A stretch of 64,000 nt of DNA from Streptococcus mutans (GTDB taxonomy: Bacteria > Bacillota > Bacilli > Lactobacillales > Streptococcaceae). A program made the position numbers and the translations under genes. The stretch spans positions 1 to 64,000 of the forward strand of contig NZ_AP019720.1 in assembly GCF_006739205.1 (NCBI RefSeq), given 5' to 3'. The notes below the pieces were generated by a model. It searched no databases. It saw only the letters and a list, made by a program, of their open reading frames with translations, and was not told the origin of the DNA. Below, piece after piece: positions 30,891 through 60,500 of this stretch; position 1 is the stretch's first letter, and the number at the start of each line of letters is the position of its first letter.

Positions 30891-31556
30891 ACATCTAGAC
30901 ATCGTTTTGGCTATCAGCAGGAAACGCTACGCAATTTAGACTTATCTATTCGATGTGGTGAAAAGATCGCTGTTATGGGGAAAAGTGGTTCTGGAAAGAC
31001 AACTTTGGCAAAAATTCTTGCAGGCTATTATACTGTTAGTAGCGGTGACTCTTTCTTAGATGGAGAAAAGATAAATTATTCCCAGCTGCGCCAATTAGTA
31101 ACTTATGTGCCACAGCAGTCTTATGTTTTTACAGGAACAATCTTAGATAATCTGCTTCTTGGTGCTGAAGAGGAAGTAACGGATGATCGCTTAATGGAAG
31201 TTTGTTCAATTGCTGAAATTTTAGACAATATCAAGGCAATGCCTTTAGGTTTTCAAACACAGATTTCAGAAGACGGAGGTTTATCTGGTGGTCAAAAACA
31301 GCGTTTAGCTATTGCACGTGCTCTCTTAACCAGACAGCCTGTGTTGATTTTTGATGAGGCAACTAGTGGTTTAGATCGTGATACCGAAGAAAAAGTTATT
31401 GCCAATTTATCTAAATTGAATCGCACGATTATTTTTATTGCTCACCGAGGCAGTGTTTCTTATTATGCTGATCGAATTGTTGAGATTGACTCTGGAGAGA
31501 AAATTAAGGACAGAATAAATCATCGTCCTTTCTCATTTTTGATGACGACTCTTTGA
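30891..31556 (+). pseudogene. Remnant of a ComA/bacteriocin-type ABC exporter (ATPase domain only)
   Basis: An ABC ATPase domain without its peptidase and membrane domains. Homology already begins at FGYQQETLRNLDLSIRCGEK, upstream of the first ATG at 30975, so the 5' part of the gene is missing; a stop codon lies at 30888. Walker A is GKSGSGKTT, the Q-loop region is YVPQQSYVFTGTI, the signature is LSGGQKQR and Walker B is LIFDEATSGLD. The order acpP / exporter / purC matches the comA-comB site of other streptococci, so this is probably the relic of that exporter. The intact ATG-initiated frame (193 codons) could still be translated, but a lone exporter ATPase is unlikely to function. Confidence 0.8.
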
Positions 31557-54743: not shown

Positions 54744-56042
54744 ATGATCAACCGTTATTCACGCCCTGAGATGGCGAACATTTGGAGTGAAGAAAACAAG
54801 TACCGTGCTTGGTTGGAAGTGGAAATTTTGGCTGACGAGGCTTGGGCTGAGTTGGGTGAGATTCCTAAGGAAGATGTGGTCAAGATTCGCGAGAAGGCGG
54901 ATTTTGATATTGATCGCATTTTGGAGATTGAGCAGCAAACCCGTCACGATGTGGTGGCCTTTACTCGTGCGGTTTCTGAGACGTTGGGTGAGGAGCGCAA
55001 GTGGGTACACTTTGGGCTGACCTCAACAGACGTGGTGGACACGGCCTACGGCTACCTATACAAGCAGGCTAACGTCATCATTCGTAAGGACTTGGATAAT
55101 TTCCTTACTATCATCGCTGATAAGGCTAAGGAGCACAAATTTACCATCATGATGGGGCGCACGCACGGTGTCCATGCGGAGCCAACGACTTTTGGTCTCA
55201 AGCTTGCGACTTGGTACAGTGAAATGAAGCGTAATATTGAGCGTTTTGAACATGCTGCCGCTGGTGTAGAAGCTGGGAAAATCTCTGGTGCTGTTGGGAA
55301 CTTTGCCAACATTCCGCCATTTGTGGAAAAATATGTTTGTGACAAATTAGGTATTCGAGCTCAGGAAATTTCGACTCAAGTCTTACCGCGTGATTTGCAC
55401 GCCGAGTATTTTGCAGTACTGGCAAGCATTGCCACATCAATCGAGCGCATGGCGACTGAAATCCGTGGTCTGCAAAAATCCGAACAGCGTGAAGTAGAGG
55501 AATTCTTTGCCAAGGGGCAAAAAGGCAGCTCTGCTATGCCCCATAAACGCAATCCTATTGGCTCTGAAAACATGACTGGTCTTGCGCGTGTGATTCGCGG
55601 ACACATGGTGACAGCCTATGAAAATGTGTCCCTCTGGCACGAACGCGATATTTCCCACTCATCAGCTGAGCGCATTATCGCGCCTGATACGACCATTCTC
55701 ATTGACTACATGCTCAATCGCTTTGGTAATATCGTGAAAAACTTGACCGTTTTCCCAGAAAATATGAAGCGCAACATGGGCTCTACCTTTGGTCTCATTT
55801 TCAGCCAGCGTGCTATGCTGACCTTGATTGAAAAAGGCATGACCCGCGAGCAGGCTTACGACCTTGTTCAGCCTAAGACTGCGCAGTCTTGGGACAACCA
55901 AGTGGACTTCAAACCGTTGCTGGAAGCAGATCCAGAGATCACGTCTCGCTTGAGCCAAGAAGAAATCGACGAAATCTTTAATCCAGTCTACTACACCAAG
56001 CGTGTGGATGAAATCTTTGACCGGATTGGATTGGGAGACTAA
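54744..56042 (+). CDS. purB: Adenylosuccinate lyase
   Basis: PurB acts twice in purine synthesis, on SAICAR and on adenylosuccinate. The 432-residue fumarase/aspartase-family enzyme has [23 protein letters not shown] and the signature [16 protein letters not shown] (near residues 262-277). AAAGG precedes the ATG. A terminator starts 12 bases after the stop. Confidence 0.97.
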
Positions 56043-56053
56043 ATACAAAACAA

Positions 56054-56075
56054 GGCGGCCGATGGGCTGCCTTTT
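56054..56075 (+). terminator. Terminator after purB
   Basis: GGCGGCC / GGCTGCC (one G-U) with a GATG loop runs into TTTT, only 2-3 bases before the promoter of the next gene. Confidence 0.75.
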
Positions 56076-56076
56076 A

Positions 56077-56085
56077 TGCTATAAT
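56077..56085 (+). promoter_or_regulatory. Extended -10 promoter giving a probably leaderless mRNA
   Basis: TGCTATAAT at 56077-56085 is a perfect extended -10. The start codon of the next gene is at 56092, about where transcription should begin, and no Shine-Dalgarno stands between. Confidence 0.6.
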
Positions 56086-56091
56086 CAAGCT

Positions 56092-56748
56092 ATGGACAAG
56101 AAAACACTTATTCAAACTTTTTATGATCATGCAGACCAAGAGCGGGCGCATGCTATGGCAGCCTATATGCGTGACCAGTTTCCTTTTCTAGGTCTTTCCA
56201 CTCCGCTTCGCCGTCAGTTGGAGAAGGACTTTGTTAAAGAATCTAAGGCGTCTAAGGCGGTTGATTGGGTTTTTGTGGAAGAGTTGTGGGAACTGCATGA
56301 GCGGGAATTTCAGTACGCTGCTTGTGATTATTTACGGGCTATGCAGATCTTTTTAACGGAAGCAGATCTGCCTCGTCTCAAACAGCTGGTTGTAACCAAG
56401 TCTTGGTGGGATACAACGGACAGTTTGGACAGAACCATTGGCAAGATCAACTTTCCCAGTAATATAGTTGATGCAACTATGTTAGAGTGGTCCTCTGATG
56501 ATAACTTTTGGCTGCGGCGCGTGGCAATTGACCACCAGCTTTTACGAAAAGATAAGATGAAGACAAATCTTTTGGAGAAGATTCTCATTAACAATCTCAA
56601 TCAAAGCGAATTTTTCATCAATAAAGCTATTGGCTGGATCTTGCGAGACTACTCTAAGACCAATCCAGATTGGGTTAGAACTTTTATTGAAAAGCATAAA
56701 AATCAGATGGCAAATTTATCGATTAAAGAAGCTAGCAAATATTTATGA
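56092..56748 (+). CDS. DNA alkylation repair protein (AlkD-like)
   Basis: A 218-residue HEAT-repeat protein of the COG4912 AlkD-like family, which removes N3/N7-alkylated purines. Typical features are the N-terminal PFLGLSTPLRR, the middle WWDTTDSLDRTIGKI containing the conserved Trp-Asp, NFWLRRVAIDHQLL, and FINKAIGWILRDYSKTNPDWV. The frame is open from 56002 inside purB, but family homology and the promoter position support ATG 56092. It is the second alkylation-repair-like gene in the purine cluster. Confidence 0.88.
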   Translation: MDKKTLIQTFYDHADQERAHAMAAYMRDQFPFLGLSTPLRRQLEKDFVKESKASKAVDWVFVEELWELHEREFQYAACDYLRAMQIFLTEADLPRLKQLVVTKSWWDTTDSLDRTIGKINFPSNIVDATMLEWSSDDNFWLRRVAIDHQLLRKDKMKTNLLEKILINNLNQSEFFINKAIGWILRDYSKTNPDWVRTFIEKHKNQMANLSIKEASKYL

Positions 56749-56775
56749 TAAGTCGCTTATCATATTTTATATCAC

Positions 56776-56837
56776 ACGAAAAACAACCGCTGGGCAAGTA
56801 GGATAAGCTGAAGTTTTGCTAGCCAGTCGTTTTTAAG
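56776..56837 (+). terminator. Imperfect terminator after the AlkD-like gene
   Basis: AAAAACAACCGCTGG pairs imperfectly with CCAGTCGTTTTT across a long loop. The remaining 56838-57133 gap shows a small AATAAGC/GCTTATT hairpin at 56884-56901 and the comR promoter region, but no gene. Confidence 0.4.
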
Positions 56838-57133
56838 AGCCTGTATTCATAAGTTATTTTATTGCGGCCTTGCAATCACTTTTAATAAGCTAACGCTTAT
56901 TTATAACTAAAATGATTTCTGTAAGTATAGGTTCTAAGTATAAAGAATAAGAAAACAAAGATTAATCGTTTGCTGCAAGACTACGCTTATGTCTTATGCT
57001 TCCTTTTTGAAACTCACTGAATGTGTTCCCAAAAGATGTCAGAAAAAATATATAGAAGTCTAGTAAATTTACTATATTATAGAGTTATGATAAAATAGTA
57101 AAAGTTTAGACAGAGATTATAGGAAAAGGTTTT

Positions 57134-58048
57134 ATGTTAAAAGATTTTGGGAAGAAAATTAAGAGCCTGAGGTTAGAAAAGGGGCTGACCAAAGAGGCTG
57201 TCTGCCTTGATGAATCGCAGTTGTCAACACGGCAGCTGACTAGAATTGAATCAGGACAGTCTATGCCAACTCTTAATAAAGCTATTTATATTGTAGGACG
57301 TTTAGGAGTAACGCTTGGCTATTTAACGGACGGAGAAAATGTCGAGTTACCCAGTCGTTATAAAGAACTAAAGTATTTATTATTACGAACGCCAACCTAT
57401 GGTGACCAACAAAGATTAACTGAAAAAGAAACCTATTTTGACGAGATTTTTAGTCAGTTTTATGATGATTTGCCTGAAGAAGAACAATTGATTATTGATG
57501 GTTTACAATCGAAACTAGATATTCATTTTAGTGACAATATCGATTTTGGCGTTGGTATTTTAAATGACTATTTTGATCAGATTTTAAGAAAAACCAATTA
57601 TCAGGTCAATGATTTGATTCTGATTGATCTCTATTTTTCCTGCTTAACTGTTAGTGGTTTGGATTCAGCTATTTTTGATTCAAGAAAATATAATCAATTA
57701 TTGGAGACATTGCTTAAGCAGGTAGACTGCCTTCCATTGGAAGATCTTTTCGTTTTAAATAATGTTTTATTGAATAATTTTGGACTCCTTTTAGAATTGA
57801 AAAAATATGATTTTGTTAAGCAGCTTATTGCTGTTAGCAATAAAATCATGGCTAGAACTCATGATTTTCAAAAAAAGCCTATTGTTAATCTTCTGACATG
57901 GAAGCATCATTTATTTGTTGAAAAAGATTATGCGAAAGCTAAAAAGAGCTATGATGCTGCTATCTTATTTGCCCAGTTAACAGAAAACATTAATTTAAGA
58001 GAAAATTTGGAGAAAGAATGGCAAAAAGATTCTCAGAACGGGACATAA
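57134..58048 (+). CDS. comR: Competence regulator ComR (Rgg/RNPP family)
   Basis: ComR is the cytoplasmic pheromone receptor that binds the imported XIP peptide and activates comS and comX (sigX). The N-terminal XRE helix-turn-helix spans about residues 5-60 (KIKSLRLEKGLTKEAVCLDE...QLTRIESGQS), followed by TPR-like helical repeats to residue 304. It is identified with confidence because comS follows immediately and encodes the known XIP of S. mutans. The comR stop codon TAA lies inside the dyad operator of comS. Confidence 0.97.
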   Translation: MLKDFGKKIKSLRLEKGLTKEAVCLDESQLSTRQLTRIESGQSMPTLNKAIYIVGRLGVTLGYLTDGENVELPSRYKELKYLLLRTPTYGDQQRLTEKETYFDEIFSQFYDDLPEEEQLIIDGLQSKLDIHFSDNIDFGVGILNDYFDQILRKTNYQVNDLILIDLYFSCLTVSGLDSAIFDSRKYNQLLETLLKQVDCLPLEDLFVLNNVLLNNFGLLLELKKYDFVKQLIAVSNKIMARTHDFQKKPIVNLLTWKHHLFVEKDYAKAKKSYDAAILFAQLTENINLRENLEKEWQKDSQNGT

Positions 58049-58083
58049 ATGTCCTGTTCTTTTTTTGAAGGATCATTTATAAT
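58035..58083 (+). promoter_or_regulatory. ComR-box (ECom box) and promoter of comS
   Basis: The dyad AGAACGGGACAT-AA-ATGTCCTGTTCT (58035-58060) with the GGGACAT/ATGTCC core is the ComR-XIP binding site. It is followed by a T-tract and TATAAT at 58078-58083. The stem plus T-run would also work as a comR terminator, so comS needs activated initiation downstream of it. Confidence 0.9.
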
Positions 58084-58116
58084 GAATGATATCAAAAAAG
58101 AAAGGAGAATAACAGG

Positions 58117-58170
58117 ATGTTTTCAATTTTAACAAGTATTTTGATGGGTCTTGACTGGTGGAGCTTATAA
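58117..58170 (+). CDS. comS: ComS pheromone precursor (XIP)
   Basis: A 17-codon gene encoding MFSILTSILMGLDWWSL. The C-terminal GLDWWSL is the mature sigX-inducing peptide XIP. After export and processing it is reimported by Opp/Ami and binds ComR. AAAGGAG lies at 58102-58107 ahead of the ATG. It sits 68 bases after comR, the standard comRS layout, and is too short for most gene finders. Confidence 0.97.
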   Translation: MFSILTSILMGLDWWSL

Positions 58171-58182
58171 TAGACAGCCCTT

Positions 58183-58404
58183 ATGTCAGATGATGATTTT
58201 GAGATAGTGTTAACTCTTGTATTTGCTAACACGACACAGTAATAAAAAGAGAAGCAAATTCAATAGACATATCACATTTGACTCAAGATAGAATCAACGA
58301 AGTCTTCGGCATCAGCTGCTGCATTAAACTTGTGGTATCTTGCTCAGATAGGAAGACTGGATGAACAAAAGTTAAATGAGTCTGGGACTAAAGTCACTAA
58401 CTAA
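58183..58404 (+). pseudogene. Frame-disrupted gene remnant downstream of comS
   Basis: Three frames can be chained into one plausible small protein: MSDDDFEIVLTLVFANTTQ from ATG 58183, then REANSIDISHLTQDRINEVF from the next frame, then AAALNLWYLAQIGRLDEQK from a third. Stops block each piece. The last part runs into the GAGTCTGGGACTAAAG repeat. No family recognised. It may be the decayed gene that once followed comRS. Confidence 0.45.
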
Positions 58405-58484
58405 AACAGAGACTCACATCACAATCACACGTGAATCTCTGTTTTTCTTAGCTGAGAAATCTTTTTGTCTCAGACTCATTTGAT
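58375..58484 (+). repeat. Nested inverted repeat with GTCTGGGAC motif
   Basis: An outer pair TGAGTCTGGGAC (58377) / GTCTCAGACTCA (58468) encloses an inner hairpin CAGAGACTCAC / GTGAATCTCTG with T5 (about 58409-58448). The inner hairpin looks like a rho-independent terminator. The GGGAC half resembles the element at 4421-4440. Confidence 0.55.
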
Positions 58485-58507
58485 TGAGTAAATCTATTAA
58501 TGGCATG

Positions 58508-58545
58508 CTAAAAGGTGTGATTTCTAATAAATACACACCTTTTAG
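58508..58545. terminator. Bidirectional terminator for the secreted protein gene
   Basis: A perfect 12-bp stem CTAAAAGGTGTG / CACACCTTTTAG with a 14-base loop lies just past the stop codon of the minus-strand gene and separates it from the comRS side. Confidence 0.8.
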
Positions 58546-58579
58546 TATATCTTATTTTTAGAGAATTTAAATTAACTTA

Positions 58580-60424
58580 TCAGTTCTTATCATTTGGAGG
58601 GGTTCCGTTTCCAGGAAAGGCTGGATGGTGGCCATTTGGAAGGAGCGGAACAGTATCTTTTGATACATGCCTGCCTGAAGGATGAGTGGTTGTGTCTTTT
58701 GTTGCTTTGATAACTGCTTTATGACCATCAGATGTTGTAACCGTGTAGGTTTTGCCTGCCTTGATGGTTTTATTTGAAAAGACAACATGGTCAAAGTCTA
58801 CATCTGCCTTTGTTTTTGCAACGATATGTCCTTTTGAGTCAGTTATAGTAATGGTATCACCGGCTAATCCTGAAACAATCGCAGCAATATAAGCTTGTTT
58901 GGTTCCCTTTGAGAAGCCCTGAGCAAATCCCATATGGCCAATTGCCCAAGTTGTTCCTCCGGAAGCAAACCCTGTACCATCATAATCAATGGCTGAGCTG
59001 TAATCAGTGATTGATTGAATTTTGAGACTACCATCGGTAATATAGAGATTTCCATTTGAATCCACACCGTCATCTTTGCCAATACCGCTGATATTAGCAC
59101 CAGAAATAACAATAGCAACCTCATTTTCGATATCTTTCTTGCTGTTTTTCAAATGCGATAGGTCAGCATCGTCTTTTGTTGTCCATTCAGTCGCGTTGAT
59201 AGCATCATCACCAGCATTGATCGTTATTTGACCTTTTTTCAAATTCACATAGCGGCCTTCGATTCCTTCAGAGCCAGATGTAATTGTTATGAAAGTTGAC
59301 CCTTTAACGGTTATCTCGTCGTTCGCTGTAATTCCTTTACTTGTAGAGGTGATTTTTACAATAGAATCTTTGATCTGGATATCACCTGAATTGACATCGG
59401 TATTATCTTCAGCTTGAATCCCATCATCTTCTGCCGAAATGGTAACATTTGACTTTTTAATGGAGACGTTTGATGTGGCATTAATCCCATCTTTAGCAGT
59501 AGAAGACAGCTCTAAGGTTACTTTATCAGCTTCTAAACTGTTTGCTTTGATAGCGTGACCAGCTGTACTTGTGACTTTCAAACCGCTTTTCTTTTTGCTT
59601 GAAATGTAGAGTGCTCCTCCTGTTTCGATTGTATTCTTCAAAGAAGACGAAATAGAGCTATCAGATAGGACTTTAATATCTAAATCTCTTGATGAATAAA
59701 GAGTGGAGTCAGTCAAATTCACTGCATCGAGTTTGAGTTTCACTGTATCAGTCACTTTATCTGCTACTGATATGCTGTAGCCGCTGGCAGACCCTGTAAG
59801 GGTATAAGTTCCTGCTGATGTAATGGTAATGTTTTTTCCATCAATGTTCACACCAGATGAAGTTGTTTTTACGCCTGTGTTGTCAAATTTAATATCTGCT
59901 TTTTCAGATTTGTCATCTTCTTTGTATTCGTTGACTTCTTCTTCCTCTTCATCATCATCATCTTTATCATATTTTGCTGATTTTAAAGCATTGACTGATT
60001 GAGACTTAACTTGAGCTTCATTACTTGTTGTTTCATCGGAAAGTTCATCATCACTTTGATCGGCTGACTCAGAAGCTGTTGCGTCATTGTTTGTCTCAGC
60101 TTCATTGCTTTCAGAAGCAGCCTCACTGCTTGCTGTGCTATTTTCTGATGAGACAGTCTCAGAAGTAACTTGGCTGTTGTCACTATCAGTGCTGTCAACT
60201 GTCTGAGAGTTTGCAGTGTCTGTGTCAGCTGCAGTTGAGGATGTGGTTGTGTTGTTTCCTGAAGCAGTAACGTTATCAGCAGAAGCAATTTGGCTGCCTC
60301 CAAGTAAAACAATAGCTCCTGCTAAGGCAATGCCTGTTACGAGACCTTTGGAGGATTTACGTTTGACATCATGTCCCTTAGCATTTGAGAAAACAGAGCG
60401 ATTAAAAAGAAATTTTTTACTCAT
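58580..60424 (-). CDS. Secreted carbohydrate-binding domain protein (SMU_63c-like)
   Basis: A 614-residue exported protein. The long signal peptide has a basic start and hydrophobic core ending at GGSQIASADN. Residues 50-170 are Ser/Thr/Glu/Asp-rich low-complexity sequence with an acidic DDDDEEEEE run near residue 152. The rest is a repetitive beta-solenoid-like region (ITITSAGTYTLTGSASGY and many SIKKSNVTISAEDDGIQAE-like turns) typical of the DUF4353 carbohydrate-binding family. No LPXTG anchor is visible; the C-terminus is Pro/Gly/His-rich. In S. mutans UA159 this protein is reported as an amyloid-forming negative regulator of competence, which fits its convergent position to comRS. Confidence 0.88.
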   Translation of the reverse strand: MSKKFLFNRSVFSNAKGHDVKRKSSKGLVTGIALAGAIVLLGGSQIASADNVTASGNNTTTSSTAADTDTANSQTVDSTDSDNSQVTSETVSSENSTASSEAASESNEAETNNDATASESADQSDDELSDETTSNEAQVKSQSVNALKSAKYDKDDDDEEEEEVNEYKEDDKSEKADIKFDNTGVKTTSSGVNIDGKNITITSAGTYTLTGSASGYSISVADKVTDTVKLKLDAVNLTDSTLYSSRDLDIKVLSDSSISSSLKNTIETGGALYISSKKKSGLKVTSTAGHAIKANSLEADKVTLELSSTAKDGINATSNVSIKKSNVTISAEDDGIQAEDNTDVNSGDIQIKDSIVKITSTSKGITANDEITVKGSTFITITSGSEGIEGRYVNLKKGQITINAGDDAINATEWTTKDDADLSHLKNSKKDIENEVAIVISGANISGIGKDDGVDSNGNLYITDGSLKIQSITDYSSAIDYDGTGFASGGTTWAIGHMGFAQGFSKGTKQAYIAAIVSGLAGDTITITDSKGHIVAKTKADVDFDHVVFSNKTIKAGKTYTVTTSDGHKAVIKATKDTTTHPSGRHVSKDTVPLLPNGHHPAFPGNGTPPNDKN

Positions 60425-60500
60425 TATAGTTTCTAACCCTTCTAAAAAGTATGAATAGCAGTTTTCTTAAAAACTTATTCAACTTTAAAAATATAATAAA

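Follow-up and report, generated by a model that had tools for sequence, protein, structure and literature searches.

The comR-comS region of the window (the whole stretch of 64,000 nucleotides that was analyzed), taken as a whole, is very probably the canonical type II ComRS competence circuit of Streptococcus mutans, in which a single dyad is put to two uses: it is the ComR box of the comS promoter and, together with a T-run, a terminator-like hairpin at the end of comR. The assignment follows from the ComR_TPR domain, the XIP, the SigX box and the P1 palindrome together. That termination takes place at the hairpin is less sure than the circuit and the double use taken together. S. mutans is a tooth-decay bacterium in which this gene pair decides when DNA uptake happens, and ComRS, as the control of that uptake, is a model for bistable peptide signalling. 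The observation is correct and its main points, including the shared stem-loop, are already in print: passages of PMC6753979, PMC4072589, PMC6703854 and PMC6211226 cover the main idea. The comparative counts presented here are a modest addition to a known locus.

The comR product was assigned by domain and structure searches. It matched PF18710 (ComR_TPR) over positions 73-296 (7.9e-83, 277.9 bits against a cut-off of 26.5) and HTH_3 with a score of 26.0 (cut-off 23), while HTH_19 scored 27.0, under its cut-off of 30.2; NCBIfam gave weak HTH matches alone, with nothing above cut-off. The structure match was PDB 5fd4 (ComR; E 2.1e-73), and further matches were 7n1n and 7n10, two chains named ComR that are just 68 and 69 residues long. 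A tblastn search of phage records with ComR returned zero matches. The locus thus combines an HTH and a ComR-type TPR domain in ComR with a short ComS ORF closely 3′ of comR that carries a WW motif near its C-terminus, as in type II ComRS systems.

The initial annotation had placed a 17-codon gene at 58117, encoding a precursor that ends in the XIP GLDWWSL. The translation agrees, as does a passage of PMC6753979 that gives this heptapeptide as the S. mutans XIP and describes the comS sequence as invariant in 34 sequenced strains and 78 further genomes. The remark that comS is easily missed because of its length is matched by a statement in PMC4072589 that small size often leaves comS ORFs unannotated. 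The pair had also been taken to confirm the species. This is reasonable within our sample of 147 genomes: in the nearest other genome among the matches listed ComR is 96% identical and ComS ends in GLDWWGL, not GLDWWSL, so the S. mutans call is sound within the sampled genomes.

Analysis of the intergenic region bore out the earlier description of a ComR dyad that overlaps the comR stop codon and forms a terminator-like stem with a T-run. The loop of the hairpin consists of bases 58046-58049 and contains the comR stop codon entirely. Folding of the dyad with the T-run gave -15.2 kcal/mol (z -5.8), and none of 200 shuffled sequences folded as well. A scan of 56700-58600 for terminator-like sites found two, with 11 and 5 pairs, of which the dyad is the longer stem. 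It has the shape of an intrinsic terminator, with a GC-bearing stem, a short loop and a T-run directly after it; termination at this putative terminator is a prediction from the sequence.

The same DNA has the form of a ComR-dependent promoter. GACA-N4-TGTC with a -10 box is found at both comS and comX, and at comS the promoter scan found no -35: among the 11 two-hexamer promoters that it listed none ended at 58083. The sequence GACANNNNTGTCNTGT occurred once in the window against 0.02 expected. When it was combined with TANNNT at the fixed spacing, two matches were found in the genome of 2,018,796 bp, at comS and comX and both on the + strand, and a reversed control of the combined pattern gave 0 matches genome-wide. 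These window and genome counts reject a chance origin of the box and a false comS. Transcription of comS would start about 7 nt past 58083, and a passage of PMC5069739 has the comS and sigX transcripts starting close to the box. According to parts of PMC6703854, ComR-type promoters have in common a dyad and a T-rich spacer, and their -10 boxes lie at similar distances. Of the earlier proposal that the same DNA may end comR and start comS, a possible dual use stands, on the sequence and in print; the dyad is an activator site and not the start point.

Upstream of comR the sequence also resembles what has been described for S. mutans. A passage of PMC5519730 names both the P1 palindrome and the SigX box within SMU.60, and reports that the latter drives comR. 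The published variant TACGAAAA matches in SMU.60; it was also present in 27 of 200 shuffled versions of the 3-kb locus, so its meaning here rests on the part of PMC5519730 that reports it. Scanning of the window with TNCGAATA, which we take to be the general SigX-box pattern, gave 6 matches, below the 8.45 expected, and none within the SMU.60 gene.

Table 1. Positions of the features of the comR-comS region in the window
Feature	Position	Strand	Basis
SMU.60 (assigned by position), gene of the DNA alkylation repair family that contains the SigX box	56002..56748	+	PF08713, 4.8e-69; longest ORF
Intragenic SigX box TACGAAAA inside SMU.60	56543..56550	+	Sequence match; motif named in a passage of PMC5519730
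P1 palindrome TAGTAAATTTACTA, proximal comR promoter	57061..57074	+	Sequence match; motif named in a passage of PMC5519730
comR, Rgg/RRNPP-type regulator gene	57134..58048	+	ORF translation, 304 aa; stop TAA 58046-58048
ComR-box dyad AGAACGGGACATAAATGTCCTGTTCT, also an 11-pair stem with a 4-nt loop	58035..58060	+	Terminator scan, folding, pattern count
Seven-T run, first T closing the stem; terminator-like U-tract / T-rich comS promoter spacer	58060..58066	+	Sequence
comS -10 box TATAAT	58078..58083	+	Sequence, promoter scan, genome pattern count
Putative comS ribosome-binding site AAAGGAG, 9 nt 5′ of the ATG	58101..58107	+	Read in the sequence
comS, XIP precursor gene	58117..58170	+	Translation MFSILTSILMGLDWWSL, 17 codons plus stop
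Hairpin followed by a T-run; candidate end point of comS transcription or candidate internal terminator of SmsR1	58404..58447	+	Folding, -14.2 kcal/mol, z -4.5

In the circuit as we picture it, ComR bound to XIP or ComS would bind the dyad and bring RNA polymerase to the comS -10 box, and the resulting start of comS would close a positive feedback loop. The same box at comX (genome position 220973) would likewise give the start of the competence sigma factor. Parts of PMC6211226 report in vitro binding of ComR to probes of PcomS and of PcomX with similar affinity, and activation of comS and comX by XIP through ComR is reported for UA159 in passages of PMC6211226 and PMC5069739. The dyad and T-run, when transcribed from comR, would form a hairpin shaped like an intrinsic terminator, at which many comR transcripts most likely end, and termination there would keep basal comS low. 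That the hairpin terminates, its efficiency and the importance of leakage past it are points that we infer. If basal ComS is set by leakage past the comR hairpin, this would be relevant to how the all-or-none response arises.

The arrangement was compared across the sample of 147 Streptococcus genomes, at least 131 of which have a ComR-like match. Downstream regions were read for 110 comR-like matches drawn from a longer list, the window's own genome included. An exact GACA-N4-TGTC lay within -60 to +200 of the stop in 83 of the 110 and was absent in 27. Boxes within -20 to +60 of the stop and with an NTGT right arm were kept, giving 52 boxes from 52 genomes (own included); the 31 of 83 that were dropped were mostly GAGTGACATTTCTGTCATT-type or distant boxes. 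The distance from GACA to TANNNT was exactly 36 nt in 51 of the 52, and 35 nt in the remaining one. A ComS-like ORF was present 3′ of 41 boxes. Loci in named species were collected in addition: a single-protein scan of genome contigs with ComR found no relative, and an alignment-based contig scan gave 79 named loci, of which 52 were read and 27 left out (oralis, mitis, pneumoniae and similar, with 36-38% identity). Among these 52 named loci a box near the stop was present in 40 and absent in 12, and 38 had a ComS-like ORF.

Several of the loci examined depart from this arrangement. Eleven of the 52 comR-linked loci (L091, L098, L102, L103, L108, L111, L132, L139, L141, L145 and L147) had no ORF passing the filter for ComS of the WW/WG type; the -10 lies at +36 in ten of them and at +35 in L091, and these loci may have another peptide type. 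ComR-like genes of 37-38% identity (L104, L106, L109, L112, L120 and others) are followed by a different box, GAGTGACATTTCTGTCATT, 18-19 nt past the stop, then by a T-run and, further downstream, TANNNT. In S. devriesei (L189) the box is intact with the stop in the loop, and the T-run and a filter-passing ComS-like ORF are absent, unlike in its relatives. Three ComR-like matches among those listed (G110:C1:73060-73950, G022:C1:55422-56312 and G078:C1:1921417-1922307) contain one in-frame TAA each.

Boxes were scored as terminator-like when the 26-nt dyad folded at -8 kcal/mol or lower and at least five of the next eight bases were T. By this rule 26 of the 52 comR-linked boxes were terminator-like, and none of eight named S. 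suis boxes that were read had five consecutive T after the stem. The counts therefore indicate that a working system need not have the terminator shape and that the terminator role is optional rather than a fixed part of the system; they do not support a T-run present as a rule for ending comR. A testable statement can be drawn from them: the spacing of the activator is fixed, while the same DNA need not serve as a terminator.

The absence, by rule, of terminator potential in half of the comR-linked boxes favors another reading of the locus, in which the circuit is the same and the dyad and T-run are pure promoter parts; the terminator shape would then be a by-product of T bases following a palindrome, with little termination, and comR and comS would be largely co-transcribed. 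The generality of a T-rich spacer in ComR-type promoters (passages of PMC6703854) points the same way, as do the counts in the 31 genomes with both sites, where comX was terminator-like in 11, close to the 14 of 31 at comS. Against it, in the four genomes nearest to that of the window (G000, G127, G042 and G043) a T-run follows the stem at comS and not at comX, the former being terminator-like in 4/4 and the latter in 0/4, counts that depend on kinship. The comX promoter of the window's genome (L002) has the same box and the same 36-nt spacing to TATAAT as comS, and its box folds at -11.8 kcal/mol; unlike at comS, the box is then followed by TTCTTAAAG, with no T-run, and is not terminator-like by rule.

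Further evidence came from the genes upstream of comX. Matches to comX were found in 121 genomes; one locus was read in each of 70 genomes, and the exact box was present in 36 of these loci. Transfer RNA genes were looked up over as much as 340 nt upstream, and over as little as about 130 nt for some loci. The boxes were terminator-like in 9 of 13 loci with an upstream tRNA on the same strand versus 3 of 23 without one (Fisher p 0.001, uncorrected for kinship), and in 4/4 where the tRNA ends 18-21 nt off. Four of the 13 tRNA-linked boxes fail the rule, among them that of G043, a genome of the mutans-like group with the tRNA 54 nt upstream, which argues against upstream genes bringing the shape about. 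For the window's genome, about 540 nt separate the comX box from the end of the upstream tRNA-Asn. Since the species are related, the association of tRNA and terminator shape, as read from these sequences, is suggestive only. A passage of PMC4072589 describes part of the bovis and pyogenic comX box as the stem of a tRNA terminator. The pattern at comX fits recruitment of the box to end upstream units that need a terminator and, with the same dependence on kinship, speaks against the T-run as a promoter part alone, without settling the matter. On balance we regard the purely promoter-based reading as possible but unlikely.

The position of the comR stop codon was examined in the same set of boxes. 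In 39 of the 52 it falls at least partly within the 22-nt dyad, in three of these by one base (offset -16), and of the 41 boxes followed by a ComS-like ORF 31 show the overlap. Relative to GACA the stop registers were -16, -4, +1, +3, +5, +6 and +7, and the stop often comes from the motif itself, as TGA in TGACA, TAA in TAACA or TAG in TAGGACA. The register that puts the stop in the loop (-4) was found in 4 of the 52 sample genomes, all in the group nearest to the window's genome (G000, G127, G042 and G043), and in named S. ratti, S. macacae, S. orisasini, S. sp. 'caviae' and S. devriesei, which are partly the same genomes; in S. ferus the register is +6. For calibration, a simple ORF rule (at least 80 aa) was applied to the window and predicted 55 genes. 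Thirteen had a terminator-like hairpin near the stop, and in two of the 13 it overlapped the stop codon: comR, with the deeper overlap, and the gene at 30975-31556. The latter, on the + strand, has a terminator-like hairpin of -17.5 kcal/mol across its stop codon. In B. subtilis, according to a source that does not cover streptococci, terminators lie a short way past stop codons. Overlap of stop and hairpin is uncommon in this small window sample and, given these counts and the B. subtilis comparison, implies no new mechanism by itself.

Overlap in several registers, and the stop within the loop in the genomes just named, could be read as a sign of translation-sensitive termination, in which the ribosome ending comR covers the hairpin, the polymerase runs on into comS, and basal comS is tied to comR translation. 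Ribosomes ending comR would then set the leakage of polymerase, and hence a basal pheromone level that seeds bistability. Compaction, however, explains the overlap easily, the motif itself giving the stop codon, and we consider this reading improbable. The same low standing applies to its general form, that the operator is a translation-sensitive comR terminator whose leakage seeds bistability, having repeatedly given the activator gene its stop and become a terminator mainly where something upstream needs ending. An unrelated Rgg regulator beside a chance short ORF, rather than a comRS pair, can practically be dismissed: nothing in the analysis favored it, and the exact XIP, the ComR_TPR domain, the box with its fixed -10 spacing and the matching box at comX speak against it.

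No Rfam family matched at gathering score within 56000-60500. Downstream of comS, the hairpin listed last in Table 1 may be where the comS transcript ends, or may be the internal terminator of SmsR1. Readthrough past comS, antisense to SMU.63, is described in part of PMC5069739. The segment 58370-58490 folds into a highly stable hairpin, with GAGTCTGGGAC as part of it (-49.2 kcal/mol, z -7.3). With at most one mismatch allowed, the genome has 7 occurrences of the 16-nt pattern GAGTCTGGGACNAAAG versus one of the reversed control, and the hairpin may be a repeated streptococcal element. Convergent to comS, positions 58580-60424 of the - strand encode a protein of 614 aa that has a carbohydrate-binding domain of the Cthe_2159 type (PF14262, 6.2e-24).

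The canonical ComRS circuit with a doubly used dyad has its closest known counterpart in the type II ComRS system of S. mutans UA159 (comR = SMU.61). The XIP, the 17-residue ComS and the -10 are the same, and the SigX box in SMU.60 and the P1 palindrome are present as here; in the features reported in the passages compared no difference was noticed. One adenine between the -10 and comS is optional according to part of PMC6753979. The stem-loop has the same two roles in a passage of that paper, which describes it, as a prediction, as the terminator of comR with a presumed part in the comS promoter. According to its legend, the promoter alignment of PMC4072589 marks the ComR stop triplet by underlining and the stem-loop pairing of the box by color. 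SmsR1 of S. mutans, described in part of PMC11045139, is a 357-nt RNA that lies between comR and SMU.63, includes comS and has a predicted promoter and an internal Rho-independent terminator, to which the hairpin at 58404-58447 may correspond. Beyond the passages of PMC6753979 and PMC4072589, the present analysis gives the energy of the hairpin, the genome-wide uniqueness of the pattern and the cross-species counts.
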